From the NCBI GenBank assembly GCA_903850735.1, contig CAINMN010000081.1:1-58113 (forward strand): a stretch of 58,113 nt of DNA, read 5' to 3'. Below, piece after piece: positions 4,101 to 56,054 of this stretch; the first letter of the stretch is position 1; every line of letters begins with the position of its first letter. The DNA comes from an uncultured Burkholderiales bacterium. Lineage in GTDB: Bacteria; Pseudomonadota; Gammaproteobacteria; Burkholderiales; Burkholderiaceae_C. Made by a program: the position numbers and the translations under genes. A model generated the notes under the pieces. It saw only the letters and a list, made by a program, of their open reading frames with translations. It ran no database searches and was not told the origin of the DNA.

Positions 4101-4808
4101 ATGTTTGAACAAGTAGTGCCCATCAACAAGGAACGCCACGCCAAGAAAAAAGTCCGATTGAGCAGTGACTTTCACTTTGCTGCCAAATTCCATTTGGCGT
4201 ACTTGACCATGGCCGAATTTGTGCGCGCAGCTTCCACGTATCCGGTGGTCTTTTTGGAAGACAAAGCCAATGACGAATTCCGTCCGGTGGCGTTGTTGGG
4301 ACTTGATGCGGGCGAAAACTTGTTTGTGGACCACGAAGGCAAGTGGTCGGCCTCTTACATTCCGGCGATCATCCGTCGTTACCCTTTTGCTTTGAGCAAG
4401 TCCGACGACGCTGATCGTTATGTGGTTTGCGTTGACGAGGCCAGCGACCTCATCAGCGACACCGAAGGTTCCCCGATGTTCGATGACGATGGCAACCCCA
4501 CCCAAGTGATTGAAAACGTCAAGCGCTATCTGGGCGAGTTGCAGCAAATGGACCAGTTGACGCAGGAATTCACACAGTTTTTGGTGCATAACAATTTACT
4601 GACACCACTGAACATGCGTGTCAATGCGGCCGATCAGGTCAAGAGCATCACCGGCTCCTATGTGATCAACGAAGAGCGACTCACGAATTTCTCAGATGAA
4701 AAATTCCTGGAGGTTCGCCACAAGCGCTATCTGCCTGCCATCTATGCCCACCTCTTGTCCTTGCCGCAAATCGAACGACTGGTGAGCCTTAAAAAACCTG
4801 CTGCGTGA
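4101..4808 (+). CDS. SapC family protein
   Basis: This 235-residue protein fits the SapC family: a short N-terminal run (FEQVVPINKERHAKKKV), then FHFAAKFHLAYLTMAEF, a VVFL...FRPVALLGL segment, a W(S)ASYIPAIIRRYPF segment and a C-terminal half with repeated acidic and amphipathic stretches. There is no signal peptide and no membrane segment, so it is probably cytoplasmic. ATG 4101 has AAAAGG at 4088-4093 with seven bases of spacing. The family is named for a gene near Campylobacter S-layer genes and is often found near surface-protein secretion genes; its biochemical role is unknown. Here it sits 95 bases before the tolC-like gene and heads the gene train that ends in the giant surface protein. 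A role as a helper or modifier of that protein is a reasonable guess. Confidence 0.85.
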   Translation: MFEQVVPINKERHAKKKVRLSSDFHFAAKFHLAYLTMAEFVRAASTYPVVFLEDKANDEFRPVALLGLDAGENLFVDHEGKWSASYIPAIIRRYPFALSKSDDADRYVVCVDEASDLISDTEGSPMFDDDGNPTQVIENVKRYLGELQQMDQLTQEFTQFLVHNNLLTPLNMRVNAADQVKSITGSYVINEERLTNFSDEKFLEVRHKRYLPAIYAHLLSLPQIERLVSLKKPAA

Positions 4809-4892
4809 GATGAAAAACAGCTCGAAACAGACGCGTTGATTTGGACAACCTCCATGGATTTCGCTTCTGATCCTTCGAGATGCACCTTCGCT

Positions 4893-4896
4893 GGAG
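4893..4896 (+). promoter_or_regulatory. ribosome binding site that decides the tolC-like start
   Basis: GGAG lies seven bases before ATG 4904 and four before the adjoining ATG 4901. The more upstream in-frame ATG at 4880 has no comparable site. Confidence 0.5.
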
Positions 4897-4903
4897 TCTG
4901 ATG

Positions 4904-6580
4904 ATGTCTAAGACCTTGAGCAAAAGCCGAATTTTCATGGCCTTGGCCGTGGCAAGCTTGGCGGTGACGGCCCAATCCGCCGAGCCCAATGCCTCGCGCA
5001 AAGCAACGGGTAAGCCAGTCTCTTCCGCATCGCAGAAGAAGGCCAAGAAACGTGTGCCCCAGCCTGCTGTCGCACCTGTGGCAACAGCGCCATCGGAGAC
5101 CCCTGCCGTTGAGGCGAATCAAGCGGCAGAAGGCGGCGACGACCAACTTTTGACGCTCAAGGAATTCGTGGCGCGCTTGCGCACAGACAACCGTGCCATC
5201 TTTGCCAAGCGGACGGAGCGCGATATTGCGGCCACTGGCATTGAGCGTGCCGGCGCTGTGTTTCAGCCGCAGCTCAATGTCAGCGCAACCAATGGCTCGC
5301 AACGACAGAAAAATTCCTTTGAGGAGTACCTCTACAGGGGCACGGTGCCTGTTTACGAGCGCCGAGGCCAAGATATCTCCGTGGCTGTTTCACAGTTGGT
5401 CAGCACAGGCGCCAAGTTGGAGGCAAAAGCCACCTTGTCTCGTTTCATGACCAACATCAACCGAAGCATTTCAGGTGATGCCGCTGCGCTTTATTCCGAT
5501 GACTATTACAACCGATCCCAATACGGCTTGGCCCTGAGCCAACCCTTGCTGAGAGATGCCGGGTCGACAGTCACCCAAGCGCGCGTCAAAGTCGCTGAGT
5601 TGGACGCACAGGCTGCCGAATACACCAGCCGAGAGACGCAAGCCAGTGTCATGGCCGAAGCGATCATGGCTTATCACGATCTGGCTTTTGCGCAAGAAAA
5701 GCTTAAAGTTGCACAAGAGCGTGTGGTGATGGGGCAGCGCCTTTTACAAGAGGCTCGCGCCTTGACCGCTTCAGGACGGTTGTCCCAGTCCGATGTGCTG
5801 GAAGTCGAAAATTCCCTAGGCCGGTATCAGTCCGCGCTCAGCGAGGCACGTCAGCAGCATCTCGATCGTTCCAACCGATTGCGGAGTTTTGTGGCTGCCA
5901 GCACACTGGCCGATCAAGGCCTTTGGCGTGCAGCCGATGCCATTCCCATGGGGCCCATCACCCCCCTTGACCCTTCTTTGGACCAAATGGTTTCTGAGGC
6001 CATGCAACGACGTGATGACTTGCGCATGCGCCGTGTGATGGTTCAGCGCGAAGGGACGCAAGTCGAGTTTGCGCGCAACCAAGCCTTGCCCAAACTGGAT
6101 TTGGTTGCCAACTATTACCGAAATGGCTACGAGTTGAATGCGCGCCAGTCATTTGCTGCACCCAACTTGCGGGACTTTCCGAGTTGGTCTGTTGGCTTCC
6201 AATTGAACATGCCGATTGGTGCAGATCGACAAGCCAAGGCTGATTTGCAAGCCGCCATGCTGCGTAAGAGTGACGCTCAGATGGCAGTTGACGCCTTGGA
6301 GGCCAACGTTGGAAATGATATTGAGACGACCCAAAGTTTGCGCGACAGTGCGGTCGAGCGACTGTCATTCCTCCATGAAGTGGCGCAGCGCGAGCAAAAA
6401 CTTCTGGAGCTTGAGCGTCGAAGGCTCAGCGCGGGGCGAAGCGACATGCGCGAAATTTTATTGCGCGAAGAGCGGGCATTGAATGCGCAACTCGGCGTCG
6501 TCGAGCAAAGGGTCGCATTGGTGAAGGCGGAAACTTTATTGCAGGCGGCGCAAGGTGTGCTGGTGCAGCAATTTGATTAG
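4904..6580 (+). CDS. TolC family outer membrane channel protein
   Basis: About 558 residues. A signal peptide (MSKTLSKS, hydrophobic core, cleavage near TAQSA) is followed by a Lys/Ala/Pro-rich low-complexity stretch to about residue 75, then two outer-membrane-factor halves. The first begins at LTLKEFVARLRTDN, the second near DPSLDQMVSEAMQRR. Long heptad-like helices (AQEKLKVAQERV; VEQRVALVKAETLL) and beta segments (QYGLALSQPLLRD; WSVGFQLNMPIG) are visible, as expected for a trimeric periplasm-spanning channel. It would be the outer-membrane exit of the export system. ATG 4904 is preferred for its GGAG; 4880 and 4901 are alternatives. The next gene starts 10 bases after its stop. The low-complexity linker after the signal peptide is longer than in typical TolC. 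Confidence 0.93.
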   Translation: MSKTLSKSRIFMALAVASLAVTAQSAEPNASRKATGKPVSSASQKKAKKRVPQPAVAPVATAPSETPAVEANQAAEGGDDQLLTLKEFVARLRTDNRAIFAKRTERDIAATGIERAGAVFQPQLNVSATNGSQRQKNSFEEYLYRGTVPVYERRGQDISVAVSQLVSTGAKLEAKATLSRFMTNINRSISGDAAALYSDDYYNRSQYGLALSQPLLRDAGSTVTQARVKVAELDAQAAEYTSRETQASVMAEAIMAYHDLAFAQEKLKVAQERVVMGQRLLQEARALTASGRLSQSDVLEVENSLGRYQSALSEARQQHLDRSNRLRSFVAASTLADQGLWRAADAIPMGPITPLDPSLDQMVSEAMQRRDDLRMRRVMVQREGTQVEFARNQALPKLDLVANYYRNGYELNARQSFAAPNLRDFPSWSVGFQLNMPIGADRQAKADLQAAMLRKSDAQMAVDALEANVGNDIETTQSLRDSAVERLSFLHEVAQREQKLLELERRRLSAGRSDMREILLREERALNAQLGVVEQRVALVKAETLLQAAQGVLVQQFD

Positions 6581-6590
6581 AGGGGCAAGC

Positions 6591-7472
6591 ATGAAGGGAT
6601 GGTTGAGCCGAAACACGGCGGTCCATGCAGTGACCGCCGTTTGGCTTTGTGTGGCCAGCCAAATTTGCGCTGCCAGCGCCGATGAAGTGTTGGGTCCGGG
6701 CTTCACGCAAGCATTGAAAGAGGCCAAACTCAGCATGACGGTCAACGGCCGGGTCGAGGGGCTGATGGTTCGCGAAGGACTTCGCGTGAGGCGCGGTGAC
6801 TTGCTTCTGCACTTGGACCGAACCACGGAAGAGCTCGAAGTCAAACGTCGCCAATTGGTGTTGCAGGACACGGCCCGGTTGCAAGAGCTTCGGCAACGCG
6901 AGGCGACATTGACCCAGCAAGTGGGGTCTGCTCGAGAATTGCTGAGCAACGGCACCATTTCCCGAAAGCAATTCGAGGATGAAGAGTTGGCTTTTCGCGC
7001 CACCGTCGCTGAAAGGCAGGCGCTGGAGTTGGCCAAGCAGCGCGAAGAGGTCGAATTGCAATTGAGCCGCGAGGCCTATGAGCGGCGCCACTTGAAAGCG
7101 CCCATTGATGGTGTGGTTGCGAAAATTCACTTTCGGGTGGGTGAGAGCATTGCCCCGCATGAGCCAGTCTTGGTCTTGGTGGATGTCAGTCGTGTTCGCT
7201 TTCTGAGTGCGGTATCGCCAGCGGCGGCAGCACGGCTGAAGCCGGGACAAAGCGTGACCGTCCAATTGGGGGCGGAGGCACGTGCGCCAGCGCGGCGCGC
7301 GCGCATTTCTTTTGTGTCGCCAACAGCAGATCCTGCCAGCGGCTTGGTGGAAGTGACGGCAGAATTCGACAATCCAGACGGCAGTGTCAAGCCCGGAGTG
7401 ACAGGGCGGCTGACGCTTGAGGCGGTCAACCCCAGCCCACTGCCCTCGACCAAAGCTGAGCCCAGGAGCTAG
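6591..7472 (+). CDS. periplasmic adaptor (HlyD/RND-type membrane fusion protein)
   Basis: This 293-residue protein has an N-terminal signal peptide (basic MKGWLSR, hydrophobic stretch to about residue 28, ending near CAASA). A split lipoyl/barrel-sandwich domain follows: first half VNGRVEGLMVREGLRVRRGD, second half KAPIDGVVAKIHFRVGES. Between the halves is an alpha-helical hairpin (about residues 80-165) and after them a beta-barrel part (VRFLSAVSPAAAARLKPGQ). This is the layout of adaptor subunits that contact TolC-type channels. The start at ATG 6591 has GAGGGG just upstream; a GTG at 6555 would overlap the tolC-like gene and lacks a leader. It is short for an RND adaptor and has no pump partner in the window. 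Inferred role: part of the bridge between inner-membrane components and the TolC-type channel. Confidence 0.88.
   Translation: MKGWLSRNTAVHAVTAVWLCVASQICAASADEVLGPGFTQALKEAKLSMTVNGRVEGLMVREGLRVRRGDLLLHLDRTTEELEVKRRQLVLQDTARLQELRQREATLTQQVGSARELLSNGTISRKQFEDEELAFRATVAERQALELAKQREEVELQLSREAYERRHLKAPIDGVVAKIHFRVGESIAPHEPVLVLVDVSRVRFLSAVSPAAAARLKPGQSVTVQLGAEARAPARRARISFVSPTADPASGLVEVTAEFDNPDGSVKPGVTGRLTLEAVNPSPLPSTKAEPRS
7464..7468 (+). promoter_or_regulatory. ribosome binding site for the GTG start of the GAF-HlyD gene
   Basis: AGGAG lies five bases before GTG 7474. No ATG is available near this position, and upstream in-frame codons lie inside the previous gene. Confidence 0.55.
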
Positions 7473-7473
7473 C

Positions 7474-9330
7474 GTGATCGCCAGCGACGCACTCTCTCGT
7501 TACACCGATCAGTTGGCGCCACTCTCGGCGTACGATGGTGCGCCGGAGGCTTTTTGGTCGGCCTATCTGGCGGCAGTGGGGGGCTTGCTTGCGCCGCGGC
7601 GTTTGTTGTTGCTGGTCTCTGCCCCTGATCAAGGCTGGCAGGCCATCGCCCAGTGGCCTGAAACCGCACCAGATCAAGCCATCGATGCCGATGTGGCGAT
7701 GCAACTGATCCCACTGGCGCAAGCCACAGAAATTGCATTGGCGCGTGATGCGAAGGGTGGTGTCATTGGGCTTGCACTGGACCTGCCCGATGCCCCCGTT
7801 CCCCGTCGCCAAAAGGCCGTCTTGGTGGCTTTGCTGGACGCCGGCCGTGATCACGGCGATTCAGAGACCCTGTTGCTTTCTTGGGCTGCGTTGGTGGCGC
7901 AGATTCCAGCCCATTACAGCCAGCGTCGACTGCTGGCGGCACAGCCGCAGGTTGAGCCACAAGGCGCAGAGAAAGCTGAGCGCTTGCACGATTTGGTTCA
8001 GTTGGCCATTCAACTGGGGCAAGAGTCACGGTTCATGCGCATGGCATTTGTGCTTTGCAATGAACTGGCTGCGCGTTACCAGTGCGATCGTGTTTCTCTC
8101 GGTTGGGTCAAAGGGCCTTACGTGGCGTTGGTGGCCGTCAGTCATACCGAGAAATTTGATCCGCGTTCATCGGCTTCGCGTGCACTGGAAGCCTTGATGG
8201 AGGAAGCCCTGGAGCAGGAGGCGGTGTTAGCCTATCCCGCACCAGAAGGTGGACGTTTGATCACGCGGGCGCATCAAAAGCATGCGGATCAAATGGGGCA
8301 TCCTTTTTTGCTGACGCTGCCCGTCAGCCGTGCAGACCAAGCTGAAGCTGTTGTGACATTGGAGCGTCAGGGGCAAGCCCTTTCGGATGCTCAGACTTGG
8401 GAAATCCAGCTGTTGCTGGCGTTGGTGGCGCGTGGCTTGGTGGATCTCCATCAAAGCGAGCGTTGGTGGGGCGAACGCCTGGCACAAGACATCCGGCATT
8501 GGGCTCAGGATCTTCTGGGGCCACGACACACATGGTGGAAATTGTTGGGCGCCGGCGCACTGAGCTTCTTCTTGGCATCCCTTGTATTGCCTTGGTCTTA
8601 CCGCGTGGATGCAGGGTTGGCGATTCGCAGCAAAGATCTTCTCTTCATGCCCGCGCCTTTCGATGGCTACTTGCGCAGCGTCCATGTCAATGTCGGTGAC
8701 CGCGTAGAGGCGGGTGCGGTGCTGGTCGAACTGGATACGCGGGACTTGCTGCTGGAGGCGTCGATGGCGCAATCTGAACTCCAACGCGCGGCACGAGAAA
8801 CCGAAAAAGCGCAGGGTGCCCGACAGTTGGCCGATATGCAAATCAGTTATGCGCGGCAACAGCAAGCAGAGGCGCGGCTGAACCTGATCCGTCATCAGCT
8901 TGAGAATGCGCAGGTGCGCGCGCCGTTCTCGGGCATTGTCACCGAAGGCGACCTCAAGAAAAATCTGGGTGCACCGCTGCGAAAAGGCGACCTTCTGGTC
9001 AAGTTGGCTCAGGCCGAAGAGTCCTTCATCGAAATTGAGATTGATCAGGCTGACGTGCACTTGGTACAAGTGGGTACACGGGGTGAATTCGCTTTGGTTG
9101 GCCGTCCAGACCAGAAGTTCGATCTTGTCATTGATCGGGTGGATCCGGCTTCGGTCTCAAGGGAAGGGCGTACTGTTTACTTGGCCCGCGCGCAAGCGCA
9201 AGGGCCTGCGCAAACTTGGTGGCGACCGGGCATGGGCGGTACCGCCAAGCTCGATGCAGGTGACCGCAGCCTGTTGTGGGTCATGACCCATCGCACCGTG
9301 CGATTCTTGCGGGAGTTTTTCTGGATATGA
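7474..9330 (+). CDS. GAF domain-HlyD fusion, inner-membrane adaptor
   Basis: This 618-residue protein joins a large cytoplasmic N-terminal part to a membrane fusion protein. Residues 1-350 hold a first poorly defined globular part and then a GAF-like domain (about 175-330; CNELAARYQCDRVSLGWV and FLLTLPVSRADQAEAVVTLE). One membrane segment follows at about 356-378 (KLLGAGALSFFLASLVLPW). The periplasmic part has the two lipoyl halves, MPAPFDGYLRSVHVNVGD (about 392) and VRAPFSGIVTEGDLKKN (about 480), around a helical hairpin. The GTG start is set by AGGAG and leaves one base after the previous stop. Its own stop overlaps the next start (ATGA). HlyD proteins of type I systems normally have only a short cytoplasmic tail, so the GAF part is unusual and may sense a ligand or dock a cytoplasmic partner. 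I see no transport ATPase domain in it. Confidence 0.88.
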   Translation: MIASDALSRYTDQLAPLSAYDGAPEAFWSAYLAAVGGLLAPRRLLLLVSAPDQGWQAIAQWPETAPDQAIDADVAMQLIPLAQATEIALARDAKGGVIGLALDLPDAPVPRRQKAVLVALLDAGRDHGDSETLLLSWAALVAQIPAHYSQRRLLAAQPQVEPQGAEKAERLHDLVQLAIQLGQESRFMRMAFVLCNELAARYQCDRVSLGWVKGPYVALVAVSHTEKFDPRSSASRALEALMEEALEQEAVLAYPAPEGGRLITRAHQKHADQMGHPFLLTLPVSRADQAEAVVTLERQGQALSDAQTWEIQLLLALVARGLVDLHQSERWWGERLAQDIRHWAQDLLGPRHTWWKLLGAGALSFFLASLVLPWSYRVDAGLAIRSKDLLFMPAPFDGYLRSVHVNVGDRVEAGAVLVELDTRDLLLEASMAQSELQRAARETEKAQGARQLADMQISYARQQQAEARLNLIRHQLENAQVRAPFSGIVTEGDLKKNLGAPLRKGDLLVKLAQAEESFIEIEIDQADVHLVQVGTRGEFALVGRPDQKFDLVIDRVDPASVSREGRTVYLARAQAQGPAQTWWRPGMGGTAKLDAGDRSLLWVMTHRTVRFLREFFWI

Positions 9331-11495
9331 GCCTTGAACAAGCGGCCAGCAAAACCTACAGCGATGCTTGGCATCGCGTGGCCACAGTGCGTGCCGAGTT
9401 GCGTCACAGCGTGACGGCACATCGCCAGTTTTTCAGGGGCGAGCCATGGGTGATTTTGCGCGACCGCTTTTCAAGTGATTGGTACCGTGTTTCGCCTCAA
9501 GCCTATGATTTTTTATGTCGTCTTTCGTTACAGCAGACCATCGCGCAGGTCTGGGAAGCTTGCCTGGTGGCAGATCCCCACGGAACACTGACGCAAGAGG
9601 AGGTGGTGCAGCTGATCGGGCAGATGAACCTCTCAAACCTGATTTCGGTCGATCGCGGGGCATTGGCAGAAAGCCTGTTTGAGCGATTCAGCAAGCGTGT
9701 ATCGGCCGAACGCAAAGCCTTGGTGTTGGGGTTTTTATCGATCAAGCTGCCTTTGCTGGACCCTGACCGCTGGTTGGAGCAAGCCCGCAAGCCCATCGGG
9801 TGGATATTCAGCCCCTTGGGGGCAGTGATGTACAGCTTGTTGCTCTTGCTCGGGGGCAAAGCCTTGATGGACAACGCCGACCGATTGTTCGATCAGACTT
9901 CGGCGTTGCTGGCACCCTCGAACTTAGGGTTGCTTTATGTGGGCTTTCTGATCGCCAAATTGCTGCACGAACTGGGGCATGCCGCACTGTGCAAGCGTTT
10001 CGGTGGCGAGGTGCACAAATTAGGCGTGATGTTCCTTATTTTTGCGCCGATGCCCTATGTCGATGCGACTTCTGCCTGGGGTTTGCGCAATCGCACCGAA
10101 CGCGTGTTGGTCGGGTTGGGCGGTGTTTTGGTGGAGTTGGGCGTGGCTGCGATGGCCGCTCTGATCTGGGCGCACAGCGCGCCTGGAACAGTCCACGCAC
10201 TCGCTTACAACATCATGTTTGTTGCCAGCGTGTCCACATTGGTTTTCAACCTCAATCCCTTGTTGCGTTTTGATGGCTACCACTTGCTGGTGGATTTGCT
10301 GGACGTACCGAATTTGTTTCAGCGCTCTCGCGAGCAATTACGCTACTTGGGTGAGCGCTACTTTCTGCGGCTTCCCCATGCGCAAGGTGCTGCTCGCACG
10401 CCGACGGAGGCCTGGCTGTTGCCGCTGTATGGATTGGCGAGCATTGGGTATTGGTTGGCCTTGATGAGCACCATTGTGGTGTTCGTGGGGGGACAGTATC
10501 TGGAATTGGGCATCCTGCTGGCGTTTGTCCTGGTTTTTACCTCCATCCTTCTGCCCATAGGGAAATTTTTACTTTACCTGATCAACGATGCGCGACTGGG
10601 CCCCTACCGTGCGCGTGCGGTTTCATTGACAGCAACGGCAGGCGTTTCACTGATGGTGCTGCTCACGTTGGTGCCCATGCCCGACCGTTTGCGTGTGCCT
10701 GGTGTTTTGGAGGCTGAGCGTTCACGTGCGCTGCACAGCGAAACCGATGGTTTTTTTGTCGAATTGTTGGCGCGTCCAGGCGAGTTTGTCCAGAAAAATC
10801 AGCCCTTGCTGCGATTGAGCAATTTGGACCTTGAACGTGAAATCGAAGCAGCACAAATGCGGCGCCAAGAGTTGATGTCTCAAGAGATCCGCGCCATCAG
10901 CAAAGGCATGGTGGATTACGCGCCATTGGCGAGACAACGCCAAGCGCTTGAGGAAAATTTGTCGCAACTGTTAGAACGTCAAGAAGCTTTGCTGGTTCGG
11001 GCGCCTATCGAAGGCGTTTGGAGTGCCAGCGAGTTGGCGCATACCCGAGGCCAATGGATGGCGCGTGGCGCCAGTCTCGGAACCTTGGTACAAGGTGGGG
11101 GATGGCGCTTCGTGGCAGTGCTCCCTCAAATTGGCAGTCATGTTTTTGATGGTGAGGTGCAGCAAGCTGAGGTGCGCCTGCGTGGCGAAGAGTCCATGAA
11201 CGTGCTGGCACGTCAAGCTCAGGTGATGCCCTTTGAGCAAGGTATTTTGCCCTCACGCGCTCTGGGCATGGCCGGTGGTGGCGCGATTGCCGTATCCCCT
11301 TCTGACCCCAATGGGTTGACTGCCACGGAACCATTTTTTCGGGTAGAGGCCCGCATTGAGCCTGATGCAGAGCCAACGCCTGCACTGTTTCACGGTCGCA
11401 CGGGGGTGATGCGCATCACGCTCTCGAGTCGCCCGTTGCTGAGTCAATGGGAGCGCGAATTGCGCCAATTTCTCCAAAGGCGGTTCCGAGTATGA
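9327..11495 (+). CDS. PqqD-like / M50 site-2 protease-like / HlyD fusion protein
   Basis: This 722-residue membrane protein has three parts. About residues 33-110 resemble a PqqD-type peptide-binding fold (VILRDRFSSDWYRVSPQAYD). The middle is a polytopic M50 metalloprotease core with HELGH (His214, Glu215, His218) in a membrane helix and the second metal site NPLLRFDGYH (Asp316). The C-terminal third, after a last membrane segment near residue 440, is a HlyD-like lipoyl/hairpin part (ETDGFFVELLARPGEFVQK; VRAPIEGVWSASELA). All metal ligands and the catalytic Glu are present, so proteolysis is possible. ATG 9327 overlaps the preceding stop (ATGA); a GTG at 9276 lies inside the previous gene. 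In context it could receive the N-terminus of the giant protein, cleave or hold it, and hand it to the adaptor/TolC assembly; this is inference. Confidence 0.88.
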   Translation: MSLEQAASKTYSDAWHRVATVRAELRHSVTAHRQFFRGEPWVILRDRFSSDWYRVSPQAYDFLCRLSLQQTIAQVWEACLVADPHGTLTQEEVVQLIGQMNLSNLISVDRGALAESLFERFSKRVSAERKALVLGFLSIKLPLLDPDRWLEQARKPIGWIFSPLGAVMYSLLLLLGGKALMDNADRLFDQTSALLAPSNLGLLYVGFLIAKLLHELGHAALCKRFGGEVHKLGVMFLIFAPMPYVDATSAWGLRNRTERVLVGLGGVLVELGVAAMAALIWAHSAPGTVHALAYNIMFVASVSTLVFNLNPLLRFDGYHLLVDLLDVPNLFQRSREQLRYLGERYFLRLPHAQGAARTPTEAWLLPLYGLASIGYWLALMSTIVVFVGGQYLELGILLAFVLVFTSILLPIGKFLLYLINDARLGPYRARAVSLTATAGVSLMVLLTLVPMPDRLRVPGVLEAERSRALHSETDGFFVELLARPGEFVQKNQPLLRLSNLDLEREIEAAQMRRQELMSQEIRAISKGMVDYAPLARQRQALEENLSQLLERQEALLVRAPIEGVWSASELAHTRGQWMARGASLGTLVQGGGWRFVAVLPQIGSHVFDGEVQQAEVRLRGEESMNVLARQAQVMPFEQGILPSRALGMAGGGAIAVSPSDPNGLTATEPFFRVEARIEPDAEPTPALFHGRTGVMRITLSSRPLLSQWERELRQFLQRRFRV

Positions 11496-13513
11496 ACGCT
11501 GCCGCGCAAGTTTTGACCCCATCCGCCGAGCGTCGTATGCCAAGTGCTTGCACGCTTGCCGCTTTGGAGCAACTTCCCGAAGGGCTGGATGCCCATGCAC
11601 AGCGCCTGCAAGGCTGGTGGCGACGTCACAATGGTGTTCAGAAAGCACTGCGCGACATTGCAGACAAAGCCGCGCTGGCATGCAGTGCGCTCAATGAGGC
11701 CAGTGAGCATGAGCTGTCACAAGCGCTTGACGAGGCACGCATGCGTTTGGCCTTGGACCCGTTGGATGCAAAGGGACACCTCGCGCAAACCTTGGGCGTG
11801 GTGGGGCAGGTGGCGCGTCGGGTGCTGGGCATGAGCCCTTATCCGGTTCAGTACATGGGCGCACTGGCATTGCACCAGGGGCTTCTGGCAGAAATGGCGA
11901 CGGGTGAAGGCAAAACTTTGACGGTGGGGTTGGCGGCTGTGTTGGCCGGCTTGACGGGCCGTCCCTGTCATGTTTTAACGGTGAATGACTACTTGGCTGA
12001 GCGAGATGCCAACGCCATGATGACTCTCTACAAGCATTGTGGTTTGACAGTGGAATCGATCACTTCTGAAGTGGCGCCAGCACAGCGTGTGATGCGCTAT
12101 GGCGCAGATGTGGTGTATTTGACGGCCAAGGAGCTGTTGGCAGACCATCTGCGCGATCAGTTGGCCGAACATGCAGGCCAAGGGGGGCAGAAGCTGGCGT
12201 TTCAGCAGTGGCTTACATCATCCCCTGAAGGAAGTGAACATCAAGCGGGAGTGCGTCTGCTGTGGCGCGGTCTTCACACCGCCATTGTGGACGAAGCAGA
12301 CAGCATTTTGGTGGACGAGGCTGTGACGCCATTGATTCTGGCCGCGCCGCGTGACAGCAGGGGACTCGCGCAGGCGGTGCAGCGAGTTTCAGAGCTCGCC
12401 AATGCGCTTCAAGTCAATGTCGATTACGAAGTTGTTGTCCGCGCGCAAGCCGTCACTTTGCAGGATTCCGCCCGCAGAGCCCTCGTGCAATTGGCCAGCG
12501 ATTTGCCCGAACTTTGGCGACCCGCGCCGCGTCGCGAGGAGTTGTTGCGGCAGGCTTTGGTGGCCCGCCATTTTTACCATGCCGGAGAACATTACGTTGT
12601 GCAAGACGGCGAGGTCGTTTTGCTAGACACCTTCACGGGGCGACTGACACCGGGGCGCTCGCTCACAGCGGGGATGCACCAAGCAATAGAAGCTTTCGAA
12701 GGCGTGGAGATCACGGAGCCCAACGAGTCGCTGACACAGATGAGTTTCCAGGCGTTTTTTCGCAGGTTCAGGCGCTTGTGTGGCTGTAGCGGAACGATAT
12801 GGGAGGCAGCGACAGAGTTATGGGCCGTCTATGGCGTTGCGGTCGTTCGTATTCCCACCCATCGTCCCCGTATTGTGGTGGAACGTGCACCAGTCCTCAC
12901 GGGTGATCTTGAGGGGAAGTGGCAAGCCGTTGTTGCCGATGCCTTAAAGGAAATTCAGCGTGGACGCCCCGTACTGATCGGCGTGCGCAGCGTCACGGCC
13001 AGCGAAGAGTTGGGACAGCGCTTGCGCGCCCATGGCATGCAACCCCAGATTCTCAACGCACTGTCACATGAACACGAAGCGCAGATCATTTCACAAGCGG
13101 GTCAATTGGGGCGTTTGACCATTGCAACCAATATGGCGGGCCGCGGAACCGATATTCGTTTAGGTGAGGGTATTGCTGCGTCTGGCGGCTTGCATGTGAT
13201 CATTGCCGAAGTCAATGACTCCGCGCGAATCGATCGCCAATTGGCGGGGCGTTGTGGTCGTCAGGGCGACCCAGGCAGTGTTTCGCTCTACCTGTCCATG
13301 AAAGACACCTTGGCAGAGCGTCAACTTGGCTTGCTTTGGCCGTGGTTGCTCAAAAAATGGAGGTACCCCAAACTGGCGGCATATGCCTTTCGCCGCGCTC
13401 AAGCGCAGTCAGAGCGGGAGGCCTATTCGCGGCGACTTTCTGTTTTGCGCAACGACGACTGGATGGCTTCAGCGCTTCCCTTTGAGGGACGACAAGGAGG
13501 TGGTTTGGCATGA
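11492..13513 (+). CDS. short SecA-like translocation ATPase
   Basis: This 673-residue relative of SecA (about 900 residues in E. coli) has no signal peptide or membrane segment. Motor domain 1 shows the Walker A segment ATGEGKT (Lys141) and DEADSILVDEA (Asp267). A preprotein-binding-like region follows, with VVQDGEVVLLDTFTGRLTPG. Motor domain 2 shows TNMAGRGTDIRLG and RIDRQLAGRCGRQGDPG. The chain stops soon after YLSMKDTL and a short helical stretch, so the SecA helical wing, most of the helical scaffold with the two-helix finger, and the zinc-binding tail are missing. It cannot be a complete substitute for housekeeping SecA. ATG 11492 overlaps the M50 gene stop (ATGA); an upstream alternative at 11447 lies within that gene. 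It is probably the energy source of a dedicated export route for the giant protein, acting alone or with the next gene product. Confidence 0.9.
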   Translation: MNAAAQVLTPSAERRMPSACTLAALEQLPEGLDAHAQRLQGWWRRHNGVQKALRDIADKAALACSALNEASEHELSQALDEARMRLALDPLDAKGHLAQTLGVVGQVARRVLGMSPYPVQYMGALALHQGLLAEMATGEGKTLTVGLAAVLAGLTGRPCHVLTVNDYLAERDANAMMTLYKHCGLTVESITSEVAPAQRVMRYGADVVYLTAKELLADHLRDQLAEHAGQGGQKLAFQQWLTSSPEGSEHQAGVRLLWRGLHTAIVDEADSILVDEAVTPLILAAPRDSRGLAQAVQRVSELANALQVNVDYEVVVRAQAVTLQDSARRALVQLASDLPELWRPAPRREELLRQALVARHFYHAGEHYVVQDGEVVLLDTFTGRLTPGRSLTAGMHQAIEAFEGVEITEPNESLTQMSFQAFFRRFRRLCGCSGTIWEAATELWAVYGVAVVRIPTHRPRIVVERAPVLTGDLEGKWQAVVADALKEIQRGRPVLIGVRSVTASEELGQRLRAHGMQPQILNALSHEHEAQIISQAGQLGRLTIATNMAGRGTDIRLGEGIAASGGLHVIIAEVNDSARIDRQLAGRCGRQGDPGSVSLYLSMKDTLAERQLGLLWPWLLKKWRYPKLAAYAFRRAQAQSEREAYSRRLSVLRNDDWMASALPFEGRQGGGLA

Positions 13514-14424
13514 CCGCCCGCCCGCTTTGGTCTGATCGTGCCTGGCTCGGGCAACCCGCGCCCGCCTTTGCCGCGGGTGTGCAATCCCTGCTTCGTGCCA
13601 GCCAGGGATTGGCAACATCCGGGTGGGAAATCTCTGTGCGCTTGAGTCCTGAGGGGCTCTGCCTGCAACGCTTGCTGGTGGGTTGGGAAACCCGGGGGGT
13701 AGCGCTTGCGCGCAAACGTCAGTTGGCTACCGAATGGGGTATACCGCCCACTTTGTCACCAGCTTGGCAGTCCGATTTGATGCATGCAGAACAAGTGCTG
13801 TTGGCCATCGAGGGGGGGCAACTGCAGGGGCGTGCGGACACGCTAGAGCGGCGTGCCTATTTGCAATTTCCCCGTACCCAAGACAACGAGAGTTTGGTTT
13901 TGCGAGGCTACAAATGGCGTGATGAACAACCGGATGTCTGGCGTCAAACAGATTACCACCGGCTGCCGATGGGCCTTGCGCAAACACAGCACGCCCTGCG
14001 CCTGGCGATGACGCAAGACACGCATGATGCGATGTCCTCGCATGCCTACAGCGCGGCCGCAGAAATTCTGAACAACGCCTGTCAAAGACTCAGTCAGCGT
14101 GGCGATTCACTGGAGACTGCGCCCTTCGAAATTTTGGTCGCTACCGAATCCTCGCAGGCGGGGCCAACGCCCAGAACTTCCTTGTGCATGCGTTTGTATG
14201 ACCTTGACGTGGATGCGCGCATGGCATCTGAGCCTTTGCAAAAATTGTTGTCCCTTTGGGGGCAAGCTCAGCATGGCGCAGCTTTGCGCAATTTATTGAC
14301 ACATCGTCCCTTGGGTTGGTTGGCGACCGGCACCGATCGCCAAGGGTTACCCTTTCTGACACTCTATGCCCAGGCTAGCATTCACGATGCCTGGCAATGG
14401 ACAGCTTTAGGAGCTGGCAAATGA
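13510..14424 (+). CDS. uncharacterised protein between SecA-like and giant genes
   Basis: I do not recognise a family. It is 304 residues, without a signal peptide or clear membrane segment, so probably cytoplasmic. The N-terminal half has alternating beta-like segments (WEISVRLSPEGLCLQRLLVGW) and a Gln/Arg-rich middle. The C-terminal half has helices (LEILNNACQRLSQ-like, about residue 185) and a strand-rich end (LGWLATGTDRQGLPFLTLY). ATG 13510 has a strong AAGGAGG at 13494-13500 and overlaps the SecA-like stop (ATGA); its own stop overlaps the giant gene start in the same way. This locked position between the ATPase and its likely cargo suggests a cargo chaperone, targeting factor or missing subunit of the short SecA-like motor. 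No sequence motif supports one of these over the others. Confidence 0.8.
   Translation: MTARPLWSDRAWLGQPAPAFAAGVQSLLRASQGLATSGWEISVRLSPEGLCLQRLLVGWETRGVALARKRQLATEWGIPPTLSPAWQSDLMHAEQVLLAIEGGQLQGRADTLERRAYLQFPRTQDNESLVLRGYKWRDEQPDVWRQTDYHRLPMGLAQTQHALRLAMTQDTHDAMSSHAYSAAAEILNNACQRLSQRGDSLETAPFEILVATESSQAGPTPRTSLCMRLYDLDVDARMASEPLQKLLSLWGQAQHGAALRNLLTHRPLGWLATGTDRQGLPFLTLYAQASIHDAWQWTALGAGK
14409..14413 (+). promoter_or_regulatory. ribosome binding site of the giant gene
   Basis: AGGAG lies seven bases before ATG 14421. This favours 14421 over the in-frame ATG 14397, which has no such site and lies deeper in the preceding gene. Confidence 0.65.
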
Positions 14425-44400: not shown

Positions 44401-47400
44401 ATGCGGGTAGCCGAGGCTTGAGTGTGGTGCTGAACGACAAAGGATTTGCGCTCAGCTTTGAGGGCGCATTCAGTCGCAATCCCCGCTTTGACCTCGATCT
44501 GGCCACATCCTTGGGCGATCTAGGCATTGACGTCACAGGCAAGGCAGCGGTTTCGGGACATCTGCGGGCCGCCTTGGATTTTGACTTCAAGTTAGGTTGG
44601 GGAAGTGGTTTACAAGCGGCTTTCGATCTCCATGAGCTTAGCTTTGAAGGCAGTCTGGCGGCGAACAGTTTGGTGCTGGGCGCAGGCCTGGGGCCCATCA
44701 ATTTGAGCATTGGGCGCGAGGGTCGCAATGCCAATGGCGTGAATTGGAAGCAGGGTTCAGCGGCCATCAATTTGTCTGGTGGAATCAAAATCGCGAACGG
44801 TCAGTTTGAGCTGCTCAATCCGCAAGCCAACCTGGACCTGAATTTGCCCCTGTATGCCAGTGTGGCAGGCATTGATCTGGTCGATGATCCAGCCCTGACG
44901 CCCGGTGTCACCCTCAAGGGCAATGTTTTGGGAAGTTCCGGCTTGCAGGTCGCAACCCAGAACTTTGAACAATTCAGTCGTCTTGGCAAGCTCAGCCTAG
45001 TCGATGTTTTGGCAGCTCTGCCGGCGATGTTGGATTATCTTGAGACGGTGGATCCATCGTCCCTGGGTTTAGGTGATTTGCCGTTCATCGAGCAAGGACT
45101 CGGGGACGTCTTGGATTTGGCCTCCAGCTTCAAAACGCAGGTGGTGGACAAAATCGACTTTTACCGCGCCCCTGTGGCTTGGGCCTCTGCGGACCGCAGT
45201 GAAACGCAGTTGGCCAACGGCAGCGCCCAGCTTTCTGCGTCTGGCAATGAACTTGTCGGTCTCAAGAGCCAGTTTGCCGCCTCCATGAGCGGGCTGTATG
45301 TGACCTTGGGACAACAGACCCGCCAAATTGCCAGCGTGTCGGACGACGGCACGACATTGCGCTTTGAGAAAGCCTTTGATGGTCTCGGCGCGCAGAGCCA
45401 AACTTACCTTGTTCACAAGGCCATCGAAAAAATCAAGACGCTGGATGAATTTGTTGCTGCATTGAACAAATCAGGCCTGCTCGGGAATGCCAAGGCCAGT
45501 TACGACGCTGCGACCAACGAGTTGCGCGTGCCCGTTCGTTACGCGCATACCTTTGATCCGCTGTCAACGCCGATCCATTTGGGCTTTGGTGGCGACGATG
45601 CGCCTGTCAGTTTATCCACCAGTGCCACGGGTGCCGTGAATGTGAATCTGGCGGCTGGCTTTGATCTGCTGTTGCGCTTGGGAGACAAAGTTTCCGTCGG
45701 CGTGGATCGGTTCGCGGGGCGTGCAGGCGTGGCCTTGCAGGTGAAAGACCTGGAGGTGGCCGCCAAATTGGGCTTTGTGACGCTCACCGCAGGCGGTGCT
45801 GGGAGCGGCTCGGGTATTGAATTGGCCGCAGCCATTGATGTGGGCTTTGACAACACACCCATCAACGGCAAAGCCGACTTCAGCAACGGTGGCGGTCAGT
45901 ATTGGTTGCTCAACCCGCCAACCTCCGCTGCGGGGATTGCCGATGCCTTGGGTGACATTGTCATTGACATCGACGGGTCGGCCTCTGCACGACTCAAGGG
46001 CCTGGCGATCGGTGCCGGGCAAGCCGGCGTGAAATTGCCCGATGCCGAGTTGGGCATTGTTGTGCAGAACCTGCTGGATCTGGACACAGTGGTGTTGGGG
46101 TATTCACCCGATTTTCAGCTTGACAAAGCGTTGGCCAGCGGCAATCTCGATCCGAACGCAGTGGTGATTGTTCTTCCCGCCATTCCGAGCTTGTCCAATC
46201 TCAATGCGCTGAGTTTCGCCGACATTGTGGGTGCTGTTCGCCTCGGCCTGGAGTTTGTGGATTCAGCAATCAGCAGCCAGCCTTTCTATACCCAGAGCCT
46301 GCCTGTATTGAACAGTTCGCTCAAAGACATTTTGAATGTGGGCGACAAATTGTTGGGTGCGTTGGCAAAAACCGACGACCAACCGGCGCAAGGCTTGGAC
46401 GAGGCTGAGCGTGTGCTGGAAGAAGCACTGGGGCTCGATCCGAGCTTGCTGGATTTGAGCATTGATTTGGACAGCAACAAGCTGTTCATCGACCTGAATC
46501 CGCGAATCAACTACGAAAGCACCATTCCGCTCGATCTTGATTTGGCGACACTGGCAAACTTGGCGGGTATCGAATTGCCGGCTGGATTCGATGCCTTTGT
46601 GGATGCTTCGGGGACTGGAAACATCCACCTGGCACTGGGTGCGGATTTGCAACTTCGCCTGGGCGTGACATTGCCCACAGCAAAACAAAGCCTCGGGTTC
46701 GCGATAGAGGACTTCAATCCGGTCACCGGCAAGGGCACGCGCTTGGGCTTGACGGCTCGCCTGGTGGCAGAGAATCTCAACCTTGATTTCAAGGTGGGAC
46801 CTGCGGAGATTGCCGTGCGCGATGGTGTGATCGCGCTGGACGCCGACGCGCGTGCAGAAACAGCGGCGCCAGCCGCCTTGCAATTGGCTTTGGTCAATGG
46901 CAAACCAGAGGTGCAACTGGTGGGTGCATTCGACCTCACGTTGCCGTTGTCAGCCAAGCTGTTGGGTCGCGAAATTCCGATCGGTCAGTTGGTCGTGCAG
47001 ACCGATCCAAGCCTGGGCACAAAAGGCTTAGAAACACTGGTCAAGCAAATTGCCGGCCTGACCAAGCCTGGTGAGCCTTCAGCACTGGTGTTGAAGTTGC
47101 CAGACCTTGATATGCCCGAGGTGGGTAAGAATGCACTGATCGACTTGCTGTACAACCCGAGTTTCATCCTGGATGGGGTGGACTTTGGGATGGGCGCTGT
47201 CCAGGATTTATTCCAATCCACCCTGGCAGCCGACGTCCCATTCATCGGTGGGGCTCTGGCGGACGCCGGCACCATGATTGGCAATGTGCGTGGCGGATTG
47301 TTGCAAGATTTGCGACTCAAATTGGCGGGCCCTGGCAAGCCTGTCGAACTGGTCCGAGACGCCTTGTTCAATGTGTTCGGACCGAGTGGCCTGAACATTT

Positions 47401-50400
47401 TGCAGGACGGCAATGACGCCGATACCACGGTCAGCATGGACGACATCGATATTGCCTTCTTCAATGAAAAAGGTGCGCGCGTCTCCACATGGGTGCCTGG
47501 GCAAGCTTTGCCAGCAAGTGGCGTCGATGCATTGCGTTTTGACATGGACTTGGGTGGAACGCTGAACTTGGCTGGCGTGGAAGTCCCGCTGAACCTCAAT
47601 TTGCCGGGCTTCAATTTGGACATTGATGGTGGTTTTGAGTTGCAAGCGGATTGGCATTACGACTTCGGTTTTGGCCTTTCATCTTCGGCAGGCTTCTTCC
47701 TGGGTACCAACGACTACGTGCCGCCGAAACCCAAGGGAGACAACACATCGCAAGCGGCAAGCACGCCGGAGTTGCGCTTGGGCTTGCGAGCTTTCCTGGA
47801 CGGGACACCACGCGATCCCAGCACCACAGAGCCCTTCGAAGGCAGCGGAAAGTTGCTGTTCTTTGAGGCCAACGTCAAAGACAAGGACACAGATCCGGCT
47901 GAGGGTTTCCAAGGCAGCAACCTGCGCGGCGAATTGACCTTGGATTTGATCGGTGACAAGACGGGGCGCTTGACGTTGGACCGCGTTCTTTCCGATCCCA
48001 CCAAGGTGCTGGCGGCTTCTTTTGGTGTCAGTGCCGATTTGCGCTTGGCCGTTGAGTTGGGTGTGACGGGTCTGCCCAAAATTCAAAGCGATTTTGTGAT
48101 CGATTGGGATTGGCGCCTGGGGGATCCGAGCGTTCAGTTCCCGCACATCAACATTGAAAATCTGCGACTGGATTTGCAATCGACGGTCATGGATTTCCTG
48201 CTGCCGATTGCGCGTCAAGTCAGCTCTGTCTTGGCGCCATTCCGCGATGTTGTCGAGGCTTTGACCACACCGGTGGCAGGTCTGGACATGATTCTGAATC
48301 CGGCACGGGAAGCGCTGGGCAAAACGCCGGACAACACGATCCGTGGGTTGATTGACACGGTCTACGAAATCATTCGCAAGACCAAGCCCGAGAAAAATCT
48401 GGCGCCGATTCCATGGGAAGTATTGGACGCAGTCAAATTTGCCTTGCAAATGCCCGACATGGTTCGCACCTTGGTTTCCGTTGGCAGTGGTGTCGCCCTG
48501 GGCAGCATTTACAACATCGGGCGAAGTGACTTCCGGTTTGAGGTTTCCAAAGACATTGCCGCCACTCAGAGCTCAGGTGGCATCAATTCACTGTTCGCTG
48601 GAATGGAAGCATTCAGTGGCGCGGCCAATGGTGGCGCCAAGGCCACGGCACGCTCAGGCTTGCAATTCTTGCCCTACATCACCGACATCAGCAATTGGGC
48701 CAAAATTTTCTCCGGTGGCAATGCAACCATCTTTACCTACGAATTGCCATTGCTGGAGTTCAGTACAGGCTTTGATGTCGAGTTGGCGCGCATACCCATT
48801 CCGTTCCCGCCGCTGTCATGGCTGAACATTGTGATCGGTGCCATTGGCAGCATGCGCGCGACCATTGATCTGTCGTTTGGATTTGACACATTTGGCGTGC
48901 AAAAAGCAGTCCAAACGGGCAATCCTTTGGATGTCATCGATGGCTTCTTTATCAATGACTGGACATTGCCTTCCGTTGTCAATGGCGTGCTCGATCCCAA
49001 GACCGGTGGCAAGGAAAAGCCAGAATTCAGTTTGGCGCTCGAACTCGGTTTGCTGGGTGGCCTGGGTATTCCTGGCGCAGCAGCTGGCCTGGGCGGTTCC
49101 GTGACCTTCATGGTGGACGCGGATTTCAACGACATCAAGCAGGGCACGATCAAGCGTGACAGCAGTGGTCAGTTCTTGAGCGTGAGCTATGTCGGTGATG
49201 GCAAGGTAAGGGCCTCTGAAGCTTTGGCCATGATGAGTTACCCGGGCCTCATTCCTGGCATTCCGGGTGGACCCCTCAATTTGTTTGATTTCCGCTTCCA
49301 GGCAGCAATCAGTCCCTACATTTGGGCCAAAGTTGGCGTGGGCCTTTTCTCGGTCTCTGCCAATGTCAAACTTTTCTCGCTCAATTTGCCAGCCATCAAT
49401 GTCAACGCCCCCACCATCAAGCCTGATATGGGTGTGGTGCAGAACGGCGTTCTCACATTGTTTGCGGGTGATCGTGCATCGGAAAGAAAATACCTTGATA
49501 CCGCAGACAGTGCGGAAACCTGGACGCTCAGCGGCAAAGACAATGGCGTGATTGACGTAGAGTTCCGCGGCTATCACACCCGCTTTACCGGCGTGGCGAA
49601 AGTGGTGGTCGACCTGGGCCAAGGCAACGACAAACTGGATGCTGGAGCCTTGTTGAACAATGTGGTGATTGAGGCCAATGGTGGCGCAGGGGACGACACC
49701 GTGTTGTTGGGCGCCGGTGGCGGACGTGTCATTGACACCGAAGGCAACAACGTGATGCGCGCATTGGCGACAGGCATCGCGCCGGTTTATCTGGTCGGAG
49801 GCCGTGGCAACGACAAGCAGTATGGGGGCTTGGGCGACGATATTCTTTACGGTGGCGCAGGCAGCAACGAATTGTTTGGCGGTGGCGGCGATGACACACT
49901 TTACGCAGTTCAGGGCATCAACAAGCTCGCTGGCCAGGACGGTGTGGATTTGTATGTTTTCACCGGTGAACTGGGTAGCAACTTGGTGACGGAGACGGGC
50001 AAGGAAGGATCAAGCGTCGATCTTTCGGGCAAGATCCCGAACGAACTGCTGGGCATTGTGGGCCCGCTCCCCAATGTGCCAACGGTATCGGCGCCGCAAA
50101 GTTTTGCTGTGATTCGCAATGTTGACGCCCGCTTGCCCTTCTATGGGCAACCGCTCACTGGCGGCGCTGACATTGTGACCAAAGTCATCTTCTCTGCCCA
50201 AGATGGTCTGTTCACGGCCAAATCCGTGAGTGGCGTGACCGTGGAAGGCTCGGGCAGCAGCAAACTGACACTGACGGGAACACTGGCGAACCTCAATGCT
50301 TATTTGGTTTCGACCAACTCTCCCTCCTACCGACTGGTCACTGACAGCGATGTCAGGGCGTTGACTGTCACCATCGATCAGGATGGTTTGACCAGCAGTG

Positions 50401-53400
50401 CTTTGTCTGAAATTCGCGCCATGACCAGCACCGATGTCAGCCAAACATGGCGCGACATGGCGCAGTCGGGTCAGCGCATCGTGGCTGTCAGCGGTGCAGA
50501 GGGAAGCACTGTGGGGGTCTACTTGAGCAACGATGCAGGGCAATCTTGGCTTGCAGCCAAATTGCCTGCAGGTGTGGGGTATGACATGGCCTCCATCAGC
50601 CCGGACGGGCAAGCTTTGGTGGCGATGTCCAGCAACGGCAGTTATGCACTGTCGCGCGATGGTGGCAGCACCTGGACCACCGGACAAGCGCCGTCGGACA
50701 ACTACGCCGATGTGGTCATGTTGGCGGATGGTCGCGTTTTGGCCGTTGACAGAACAGACAGCGAGAAGAACTTCTATTTCAACAACGTGTTTGACTGGGG
50801 TTGGCGCACAACGAACAAGCCTGGCTTGGCAAGGGTGCTCGGTTTGGACGGTCTGTGGACGCAACTGAGTTCGCCCAACGGCAACTGGAATGCACTGACA
50901 ACCGCCCAAACAACACAACACAGTTTGGTGCTGGCTGCCACTGGCAGCAAAGCCAACAACAGTGTCAATGGTGACCTGTACATGGGGACCGTCGCGGCCA
51001 GCGGTGCGATCACATGGGCAAACGTGACACGCAATGGGCCTGCCAACGCCAATTGGACGTCCGTTGACATGAGTGCCGATGGTCGCTACCTTGTTGCCGC
51101 TGTGCGCGGCGGCCAGATCTACCTTGCGGATACCTCTCAGGCCAATTGGACTTGGCGCTCGACTGGCCTGACAGCTGATTGGACCGCCGTCTGGATGTCG
51201 GACGACGGCCAGAGTTTGGCCGCAACCGCCAACGGCGGTGTTGGCGGCGTCTGGATTTCTCAAAACGCTGGCAATGCCTGGGCCAAGGTCGGTGGCCAAG
51301 GGACCATGGGCATCGCGACTGGACAGGATTGGCGCATGGCCTCCGTGGATTCGAGCACGGGCGAGATCATCGCTGCGGTCAGCGGCACGCCCTTGATTCG
51401 TTTTGATCCACCACCGACCAGTGCTGCCCCCAACATTGATCTGCCGCTGCAACTGGAGGCTCCCAGTGCGACCCCAACGTCTGTGACGCTGGCCAGCAAT
51501 GCGATTGCCGATGCAGATTCGGCGCGCTTGAGCGTTGAGTTGTCAGCTGACAGTGGGCGCTTCGAACTGACGACGGCGGGTCAAGAAGCGCTCACAGAAA
51601 TCAACCAAAAGGCCACTGCTGCCGCTTTGGTGAGCGTGCGTGCCTCGTCTGGCAACAGCCCGGCTGTGGAGGGGGTCAACAATGTCATGGATGGAAACAC
51701 CCGTACCAAGTACCTCAACTTTGACGGCGTGAGCAGCGGCTTGGTGTTCGAGCTCACCTCGGCAGAGGTTGTGGGCCAACTGTCACTCACGACACGTACA
51801 AATGATGACATCTGGGCCTGGGATCCCAAAACCATTGCGGTGTATGGCGCCAACGATGATTTGACCTGGGGCAGCAGCCAATGGACGTTGGTCCAGGACG
51901 GCTTGGCTACCAATCTGGCGAACACACGTGGTGCAACCAGCGTGGTTGACTTTGACAATGCCACGCCCTACCGTTTTTACAAAATGGTCGTCACGGAAAT
52001 CAAGGGTGTCCATAAAAATACCCAGCGCTATGCGCACTTTTCGGAGGCCTCTTTGCTGTTGCCTACCCTGGCTGTGACGCAGAACGATGATGGCAGCCTG
52101 CGCCTCAGTGGTGACAAAGTGGCGCTTCAAAAGTTCCTGGCCTCCGAAGAGCTGATTCATTTTGTTGCAGGTCCGGCAGGTTCCAACGGTACCTTGGCGG
52201 TCACGGCCAGCGATGGTGTGAACGTGACCCGTTCCAGCATACCGCTGGTGGATCAGCAGCCTTTTGCCATCCGTGCTTCTTACAACGGCGGAAGTTTTGA
52301 AATTTTTGCCAGCTCTGGAAACGGCTTGCGCCTGGCCCGCGCAGGAACCAATGAAGTTCGATTGGGCACGCTGGGCGATGAGCTCTCAGTGATCAAGTTG
52401 GCTGAGTCGCCTGTGACGCAGGCGTTTGAGGTTCTGTCAAGCCAACCGCAAGAAGCCTCTGCAGACGATGCCGGCGGCCAGCTGATCAACTTGGTGAGGC
52501 CCAGTCCGGTCACCCAGCTGACGCTGACAAGCCAGGCCTTGGCAGGCACCTCAGCGCTGGACCCCAGCCAGTACGCCCTGTATGGCGCCTCCGAAGGTTT
52601 GGCTTGGGGCGCAGAGGGTTGGAAATTGATTTCGCAAGGCAGTACAGGACTCAGCGAACAACGAAATGCCTCTGTGACCCTGAAGTTCAAGAATACCGAG
52701 ACCTTCAGCCACTACAAGCTCGTTTTTGCCGCGACCCGCGCTCCCGCTCTTCAACCCACTTCAGCTCGCGTGGCTGCCGCCGTTTTGGGCGGACCCAGTG
52801 CTTTGACATTTGTGGCCTCCAAAGGCGCCGACACTGTGAGAGTTTTTGTCGGTGATACCCGCTCTCAAGATGGATCGGCAAGGCAATTGGTCTTGCAAGA
52901 TCATGTGGAAACGATCACTGCGACCATCACGAAGGTCTTGGCATCTTCCCTGAACAGCCCGGCGGCTGAAATGGTGGCCAATGTGGTCGACGGCCAAACT
53001 GGGACCAAATATCTGAATTTCGACGGCATCGGAAGTGGCATGGTCATGAAGCTTGATCATGCCGATGCCATGACGGGGCTCAGTTTGACCACACGGACCA
53101 ATGACGATATCTGGGCATGGGATCCCAAGACGGTGGCGATTTATGGCGCCAATGAGGCCCTGGCTTGGGCAGATTCCGCTTGGTCGCTCATCCAAGACGG
53201 CTTGGCCACACAATTGCCCAACGGCAGAGGTGAGAGCAGCAGCGTCACGTTCAGTAACGCCAACGCCTACCAATACTACAAGCTTGTTTTCACAGACACC
53301 AAGGGCACTCACCAAGGCAAACGCTATGTTCATGTCTCGGAAGCCACGCTGTTCAAGCAAGTGAGCCTGCTTGCCGATGACCGTCTGTCTTTGCAGATGA

Positions 53401-56054: not shown

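Follow-up and report, generated by a model that had tools for sequence, protein, structure and literature searches.

In 2015, Kamneva, Poudel and Ward described a set of bacterial genes that includes SecA_DEAD, M50-HlyD, GAF-HlyD, HlyD and OEP genes (PMC4452313). In their proposal, SecA serves as the ATPase and the M50 protein as the pore, and no ABC gene is present in the loci (PMC4452313). Loss of the wing-scaffold domain was reported for this clade of SecA proteins, and the wing domain of SecA has been implicated in contact with SecYEG (PMC4452313). Methylobacterium extorquens AM1 is listed there among the carriers, with GAF, M50, SecA_DEAD and HlyD genes (PMC4452313). The study named no cargo, and the words "LEPR", "giant" and "cargo" occur 0 times each in its main text (PMC4452313).

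A second line of background concerns LEPR-XLL proteins. In the literature searched, these proteins are mentioned in passing in two papers, one reporting a giant of Vibrio whose C terminus carries RTX and serralysin domains (PMC10868602) and the other a Limnohabitans protein among the transcripts of a Lake Baikal sample (PMC9611531). In the same literature, we found no link between the 2015 cassette and LEPR proteins, and no account of how LEPR proteins leave the cell.

In this study, we analyzed a window of 58,113 bases, which is an entire contig (C81), so that the view ends at both contig ends. The original prediction had presented the window as encoding a candidate undescribed export machine. 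That novelty does not hold, since the same gene set, with SecA proposed as the ATPase, was already in the 2015 account (PMC4452313). The loci described there carry a SecA_DEAD protein in which SecA_SW is missing or reduced to a small part, sometimes an OEP gene, and no ABC gene; the window likewise has SecA_DEAD without SecA_SW, adjoining M50-HlyD and GAF-HlyD genes, and its genome has a separate canonical SecA. What is new is the link to a cargo, a sister type of cassette that lacks the short SecA-like ATPase (SecAL), and loci in which SecAL is devoid of ATPase motifs.

Results

Organization of the locus

A train of genes on the + strand (4101-56054) encodes, in order, SapC, a TolC-type channel, an adaptor, a GAF-HlyD protein, an M50-HlyD protein, SecAL, a 304-aa protein and a giant protein. 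The original prediction of a single train with TolC, three HlyD-type modules, an M50 protease and a SecA-like ATPase was correct in all its genes, each of which was found in place on the + strand.

The first gene (4101..4808, +) codes for a SapC family protein (PF07277; Pfam E 1.7e-73). SapC is a recurrent neighbor of the cassette: it was matched in 9/80 relatives' loci, and it is part of the train in some relatives and lies beside some cassettes of the window's type (group I, defined below). In Campylobacter fetus, SapC presumably adjoins S-layer export genes; literature searches on SapC and on daptide found nothing. The TolC-type outer membrane channel (OEP; 4880..6580, +) matches PF02321 (E 3.9e-29) and scores under the cut-off of TIGR01844. 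It is followed by an HlyD-type periplasmic adaptor (6591..7472, +; ATG at 6591 in an ORF open from 6555; HlyD_D23 E 7e-22), which is of the RND type according to TIGR01730 (133.9 bits, cut-off 94.9). The next protein, GAF-HlyD (7474..9330, +; ORF from 7417), matches HlyD_3 (E 2.5e-16). Its GAF domain has no Pfam match at E≤0.1, and the label rests on other members of the family, 28/32 of which match PF01590 at this threshold.

Downstream are the M50-HlyD gene (9327..11495, +), whose start lies in an ATGA overlap and whose product contains HELGH and NLNPLLRFD, and the SecAL gene (11492..13513, +; SecA_DEAD E 1.1e-82). The 304-aa protein (13510..14424, +) has no Pfam or NCBIfam match at E≤0.1; its homologues in L039-L042, L111, L200 and L201 are mostly from near relatives. 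The train ends with the giant LEPR protein (14421..56054, +; NF012209), the proposed cargo. Its predicted length of 13,877 aa was confirmed from ATG 14421 and becomes 13,885 aa from ATG 14397. Four consecutive junctions (GAF-HlyD/M50-HlyD, M50-HlyD/SecAL, SecAL/304-aa protein and 304-aa protein/giant) are 4-base ATGA overlaps, at 9327, 11492, 13510 and 14421, so that translation of the giant is probably coordinated with that of the machine genes.

A DUF3422 gene, a 7TM histidine kinase and a response regulator are located 5' of the train, and a minus-strand gene pair 3' of the giant (56149-58053) has no Pfam or NCBIfam match. Promoter-like sites were at the level of shuffled sequences (3 versus 3.2), and terminator-like sites numbered 22 versus 15.8 in shuffles (sd 4.1). 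Pfam scans of the 13 window genes, including the giant, detected no ABC or RND pump on the contig, in agreement with the original prediction.

The M50-HlyD protein

From the N to the C terminus, this protein consists of a PqqD-like part, seven predicted membrane helices and an HlyD part similar to MexA and MacA. In the structural model (pLDDT 91, pTM 0.77), the N-terminal part is beta-rich and winged-helix-like. The seven helices between the two parts were read from the model and from hydropathy; with an odd number of helices, the N-terminal and HlyD parts would sit on opposite sides of the membrane.

The window protein has the residues of M50 site-2-type proteases, i.e., HExxH and a second metal-binding aspartate, and the corresponding positions (H231, E232, H235 and D333) are invariant in 77/77 M50-HlyD proteins. 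PqqD-type domains bind leader peptides. The PqqD family (PF05402) was matched at E≤1 in 14/30 M50-HlyD members (best E 2.2e-5); by type, the match occurred in 5/7 members of group I, at residues 37-116, and in 0/3 members of the sister group II, and the window's own M50-HlyD had no PqqD match. In addition, a model of the daptide HExxH RiPP protease (NF041824) aligned with residues 42-423 of the window protein (E 2e-52), with a score of 178.6 bits that is under the curated cut-off of 300.

A SecA-like ATPase of reduced size

SecAL matches SecA in the motor core and the preprotein-binding domain (SecA_DEAD, PP_bind, P-loop), and the window SecAL had no SecA_SW match at E≤0.1. Its AlphaFold model (pLDDT 89) gave SecA structures as the best Foldseek matches. 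Beyond residue about 625, the model contains little besides one long helix (641-676), and therefore the wing and the two-helix finger of SecA seem to be missing. The long helix may in part be a remnant of the SecA scaffold helix. A housekeeping SecA, distinct from SecAL, is present in the window's genome in pieces on two contigs (C101 and C334).

Walker A, the DEAD box and motif VI are intact in the window SecAL, which served as the reference for aligning catalytic positions. Compared with it, 89/100 SecAL ORFs are near-intact, with changes at fewer than 4 of the 15 positions. Five SecAL ORFs lack both Walker A and motif VI: L212 (genome G464), L236 (G110), L217 (G102), L080, which retains the DEAD box, and L093 (Parabeggiatoa), which is 512 aa long. 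Other irregular genes include L069, with an altered Walker A and split over two frames, L238, which is stop-split, and L058 and L237, which are cut by contig ends and have an intact Walker A (L058 was not counted as degenerate). The genomes of L069 and L080 also carry an intact SecAL. No SecAL besides the motif-less one, and only housekeeping SecA, was found in the Parabeggiatoa genome and in G464, G110 and G102, with weak matches left off the list in the searches of the latter three. The M50 active site was intact in 7/7 loci checked (L058, L069, L080, L093, L212, L217 and L236).

Recurrence of the cassette and its two types

An alignment search with M50-HlyD matched at least 594 stretches; relatives are encoded in at least 545 of these, and the analysis continued with the best 80. 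Among the matches listed, the titles name Pseudomonadota, sulfur-reducing deltaproteobacteria, Verrucomicrobia, Planctomycetes, Fibrobacteres, Lentisphaerae and Omnitrophota. In the best 80 of the at least 545 relatives, by strict distances, SecAL is directly 3' of M50-HlyD in 66 of the 75 loci with room for it, and GAF-HlyD is directly 5' in 66 of 73; both values are undercounts owing to spurious ORFs (e.g., L062 and L089 carry SecAL). Pairwise distances of SecAL and of M50-HlyD were correlated over 60 loci (r = 0.86; the highest of 1000 permutations gave 0.11), as expected if the two genes move as one unit. Chance neighborhood was rejected on the basis of the strict adjacency counts, this correlation and the LEPR association reported below. 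The distribution is patchy, with M50 matches in 11/101 relatives.

We further surveyed 397 Pseudomonadota genomes of at least 90% completeness, including that of the window (G000). M50-HlyD scores were bimodal: 36 genomes scored above 550 bits and form group I, the type found in the window, whereas 48 genomes had best scores of 270-412 bits and form group II, the sister type; 313 genomes remained. Cassette numbers per genome are lower bounds, as the two best M50-HlyD candidates were scored in each. The search for SecAL scored up to 15 candidates per genome, with the weakest matches left off the list. SecAL is a clear gene in 30/36 group I genomes, among them G333, where it is stop-split; four more (G169, G102, G110 and G464) have a divergent or contig-cut SecAL adjoining M50, and the search of G262 and G373 yielded no SecAL. 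Within group II, SecAL was found in 0/44 genomes tested (of 48), and only housekeeping SecA scored high. When individual loci were read, SecAL was beside M50 in 18/20 group I loci versus 0/20 group II loci. The 20 group II loci contain a shorter GAF-HlyD-like gene in 19 cases and an ORF of more than 1200 aa in 18, some of these ORFs being possibly spurious; ABC-like ORFs were found by motif scan in 3/20. M50-HlyD, not SecAL, is the constant core of the cassette.

The original prediction also inferred that the SecA-like ATPase either replaces the ABC motor or drives the cargo through SecYEG into an HlyD/TolC bridge. Replacement of the ABC motor is supported only in part. As a universal motor, SecAL was rejected, because it was not found in the 44 group II genomes tested, in G262 or in G373 and is motif-less in four genomes (G464, G110, G102 and Parabeggiatoa).

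Association of LEPR giants with the cassette

LEPR proteins were searched for with NF012209, a model of 24 positions, at a main threshold of E≤1e-3. Matches were found in 32/36 group I and 7/48 group II genomes versus 0/313 other Pseudomonadota genomes (Fisher p 2.9e-41 and 4.9e-7), with p values inflated by relatedness, as genomes within one family are not independent in these counts. The gene unit recurs across phyla and co-occurs with LEPR proteins. At E≤0.1, the numbers were 36/36, 35/48 and 20/313; the ORFs listed for the 20 other genomes were of at most 1014 aa, and 4/36 group I genomes had a match at this threshold only and not at E≤1e-3. The contrast also holds within a single family (f78), where a hand count at E≤1e-3 gave LEPR in 5/5 M50 carriers versus 0/34 others. 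Among 144 Verrucomicrobiota genomes, two of which had been used to reach the phylum, 10/11 of group I had a match at E≤1e-3 versus 1/133 others, the sole match outside group I being a 636-aa frame. LEPR was present in 5/5 hand-chosen cassette genomes; the control, Deinobacterium chartae, had a match at E≤0.1 and none at E≤0.01.

Of 53 LEPR matches at E≤1e-3, 32 are on the same contig as a listed M50 gene, at distances of up to about 6 kb in 23 cases and up to 20 kb in 29 (distances were derived from ORF lengths, and the M50 list omitted some weaker group II rows). A LEPR giant also adjoins the cassette in two genomes with a motif-less SecAL, G464 (E 4.4e-7) and G110 (E 0.0068, above the family cut-off). 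The LEPR giant is the likely cargo of the cassette, as had been predicted, on the grounds of proximity and of an association counted by genomes, which is not equivalent to transport.

Several additional observations were made in the course of these searches. Two LEPR frames, in G507:C142 and G161:C115, are open over 20,466 and 19,427 residues, respectively. The window's genome encodes a second LEPR protein of at least 2110 aa with the motif LEPRVLLSGD (L226, 13569-19898 of G000:C107), and no cassette genes were matched near it in the 19.9 kb read. A second GAF-HlyD gene in this genome, cut by its short contig (L227, 1441-3147 of G000:C66), suggests a second cassette. Finally, a contig filed under Akkermansia muciniphila (L038) encodes an M50-HlyD protein 61% identical to that of the window and is probably mis-binned.

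The giant protein and its N-terminus

NF012209 matches the window giant with 24.6 bits (cut-off 17) at residues 31-48, counted from ATG 14397, and the LEPR-type motif, LEDRVLLSAD, is located in a basic N-terminus (14487..14540, +). The giant is acidic and contains no cysteine and no clear membrane segment (no 19-residue window above 1.72). RTX calcium-binding repeats (49680..49901, +; residues 11754-11827; PF00353 E 1.2e-7) were the only family above cut-off in a Pfam scan of the protein. Judged by its sequence, such a protein would be suited to folding outside the cell in calcium.

We compared LEPR N-termini in 39 pattern rows, of which two (L044 and L182) were dropped as chance matches. In the remaining 37, with starts guessed from upstream ATG codons, the stretch before the motif has a median of 31 residues and a net charge of +5. 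None of the 37 reaches a 12-residue hydropathy mean of 2.0; the highest value is 1.56, compared with 2.6 for the signal of the window's TolC protein. Thus, basic and devoid of a hydrophobic core, these N-termini do not look like ordinary signal peptides. At position 8 of the motif, 28/28 group I rows have S, N or A and 9/9 group II rows have D. Since 16 of the former and 2 of the latter had been obtained with the LEPR model, a possible bias toward S, we also counted without them, and the pattern was seen in 12/12 and 7/7 rows. The two scored group I loci without an adjoining SecAL (L031 and L214) retain the S type, and the LEPR motif therefore varies with the M50 protein and not with SecAL.

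Discussion

We propose, with a probability of roughly 60%, that the cassette is a dedicated exporter of LEPR giants, in which M50-HlyD would read, and perhaps cut, the leader and SecAL would be auxiliary. The sequence evidence for this proposal consists of the gene unit, its recurrence, the LEPR association, the N-termini without hydrophobic core, the conserved M50 site, and a SecAL that is a motor core without scaffold and wing. The basic LEPR N-terminus would act as the leader and be read by M50-HlyD, whose N-terminal part is PqqD-like in relatives, and the M50 site would probably cut it. The HlyD parts, together with the TolC-type channel, would form a conduit across the periplasm and the outer membrane, and SecAL, in the branch to which the window belongs, may push or guide the chain at the cytoplasmic face. 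The pore in the inner membrane would be either M50-HlyD or SecYEG. A bolder version, which we offer tentatively and consider rather unlikely, is that M50-HlyD itself both reads and cuts the leader and is the gate of an exporter that has no ABC, RND or SecYEG component and can move a chain 10,000 to 20,000 residues long out of the cytoplasm to the exterior in one step; SecAL would then be an optional extra motor, confined to one branch and, in places, reduced to a guide without ATPase function.

A route through SecYEG has to be considered, as SecAL is homologous to SecA and its best structure matches are SecA structures. SecAL or the housekeeping SecA, which the window's genome contains in pieces, would drive the giant through SecYEG; HlyD and TolC proteins would act only from the periplasm to the outside, and M50 would clip a leader held in the membrane. 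Branches without SecAL could rely on the housekeeping SecA. However, the LEPR N-termini are without a hydrophobic core (0/37, with many starts guessed), and SecAL is without SecA_SW, while the wing is implicated in SecYEG contact (PMC4452313), and we regard this route as unlikely, though deserving of attention. The RTX repeats of the giant bring in another candidate, a canonical type I ABC exporter encoded elsewhere in the genome, with the cassette only processing or anchoring the giant. The Vibrio LEPR-XLL protein, for which C-terminal RTX and serralysin domains are reported (PMC10868602), would suit type I secretion, and the window's genome has two PrtD-family type I ABC genes above cut-off, on C150 and C244. 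But, by our reading, the C244 gene is accompanied by an HlyD-like gene and a partial ORF of large size, and a TolC-like gene and a 1743-aa ORF lie in the C150 stretch; each ABC gene therefore seems to have partners of its own. With no ABC gene on the cassette contig, and ABC-like ORFs in only 3/20 group II loci by motif scan, such an exporter is improbable.

The RND-type adaptor and the patchy distribution (M50 in 11/101 relatives) would also suit a cassette that exports or senses something small and adjoins giant genes since both are mobile. Against this, LEPR proteins are associated with the cassette genome-wide as well as within a family, and the types of LEPR motif and cassette are matched; we consider a small substrate very improbable.

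If the dedicated-exporter reading is right and the two are paired, the cassette without a cargo of 2015 and the giant family without an exporter would explain each other. The family includes very long predicted bacterial proteins, with open frames of up to 20,466 residues; M. extorquens AM1 presumably has a giant protein as well. The exporter core, if real, would be an addition to the ABC, RND and MFS cores and differ from them in that it fuses an adaptor to a membrane protease. SecAL genes that have lost the ATPase motifs are natural tests of the role of the SecA-like part.

Several known systems share parts with the cassette. The window giant scores above the cut-off of the LEPR-XLL (LEPR-8K) family (NF012209), a match that provides a name only and no exporter. 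RiPP leader proteases (NF041824) have in common with the cassette the M50 match and, in cassette relatives, a PqqD-like part, whereas the cassette M50 is fused to HlyD and its likely cargo is a giant protein. RND efflux pumps have an inner-membrane RND protein, which the contig lacks; its adaptor is of the RND type. Accessory SecA2 and SecAL are alike in being SecA-type ATPases that occur in addition to the housekeeping SecA; unlike SecA2, SecAL is without the SecA_SW region and sits with HlyD and TolC genes in Gram-negatives, and the scaffold, wing and two-helix finger region of SecA and SecA2 is not found in it. Finally, type I secretion (HlyB-HlyD-TolC) and the cassette share HlyD adaptors and a TolC-type channel, and RTX repeats occur in the large likely cargo of the cassette. 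In contrast to type I secretion, the cassette contig has, instead of an ABC transporter, a SecA-like ATPase and an M50 membrane protease that is fused to HlyD, and the motif of its likely cargo is N-terminal.
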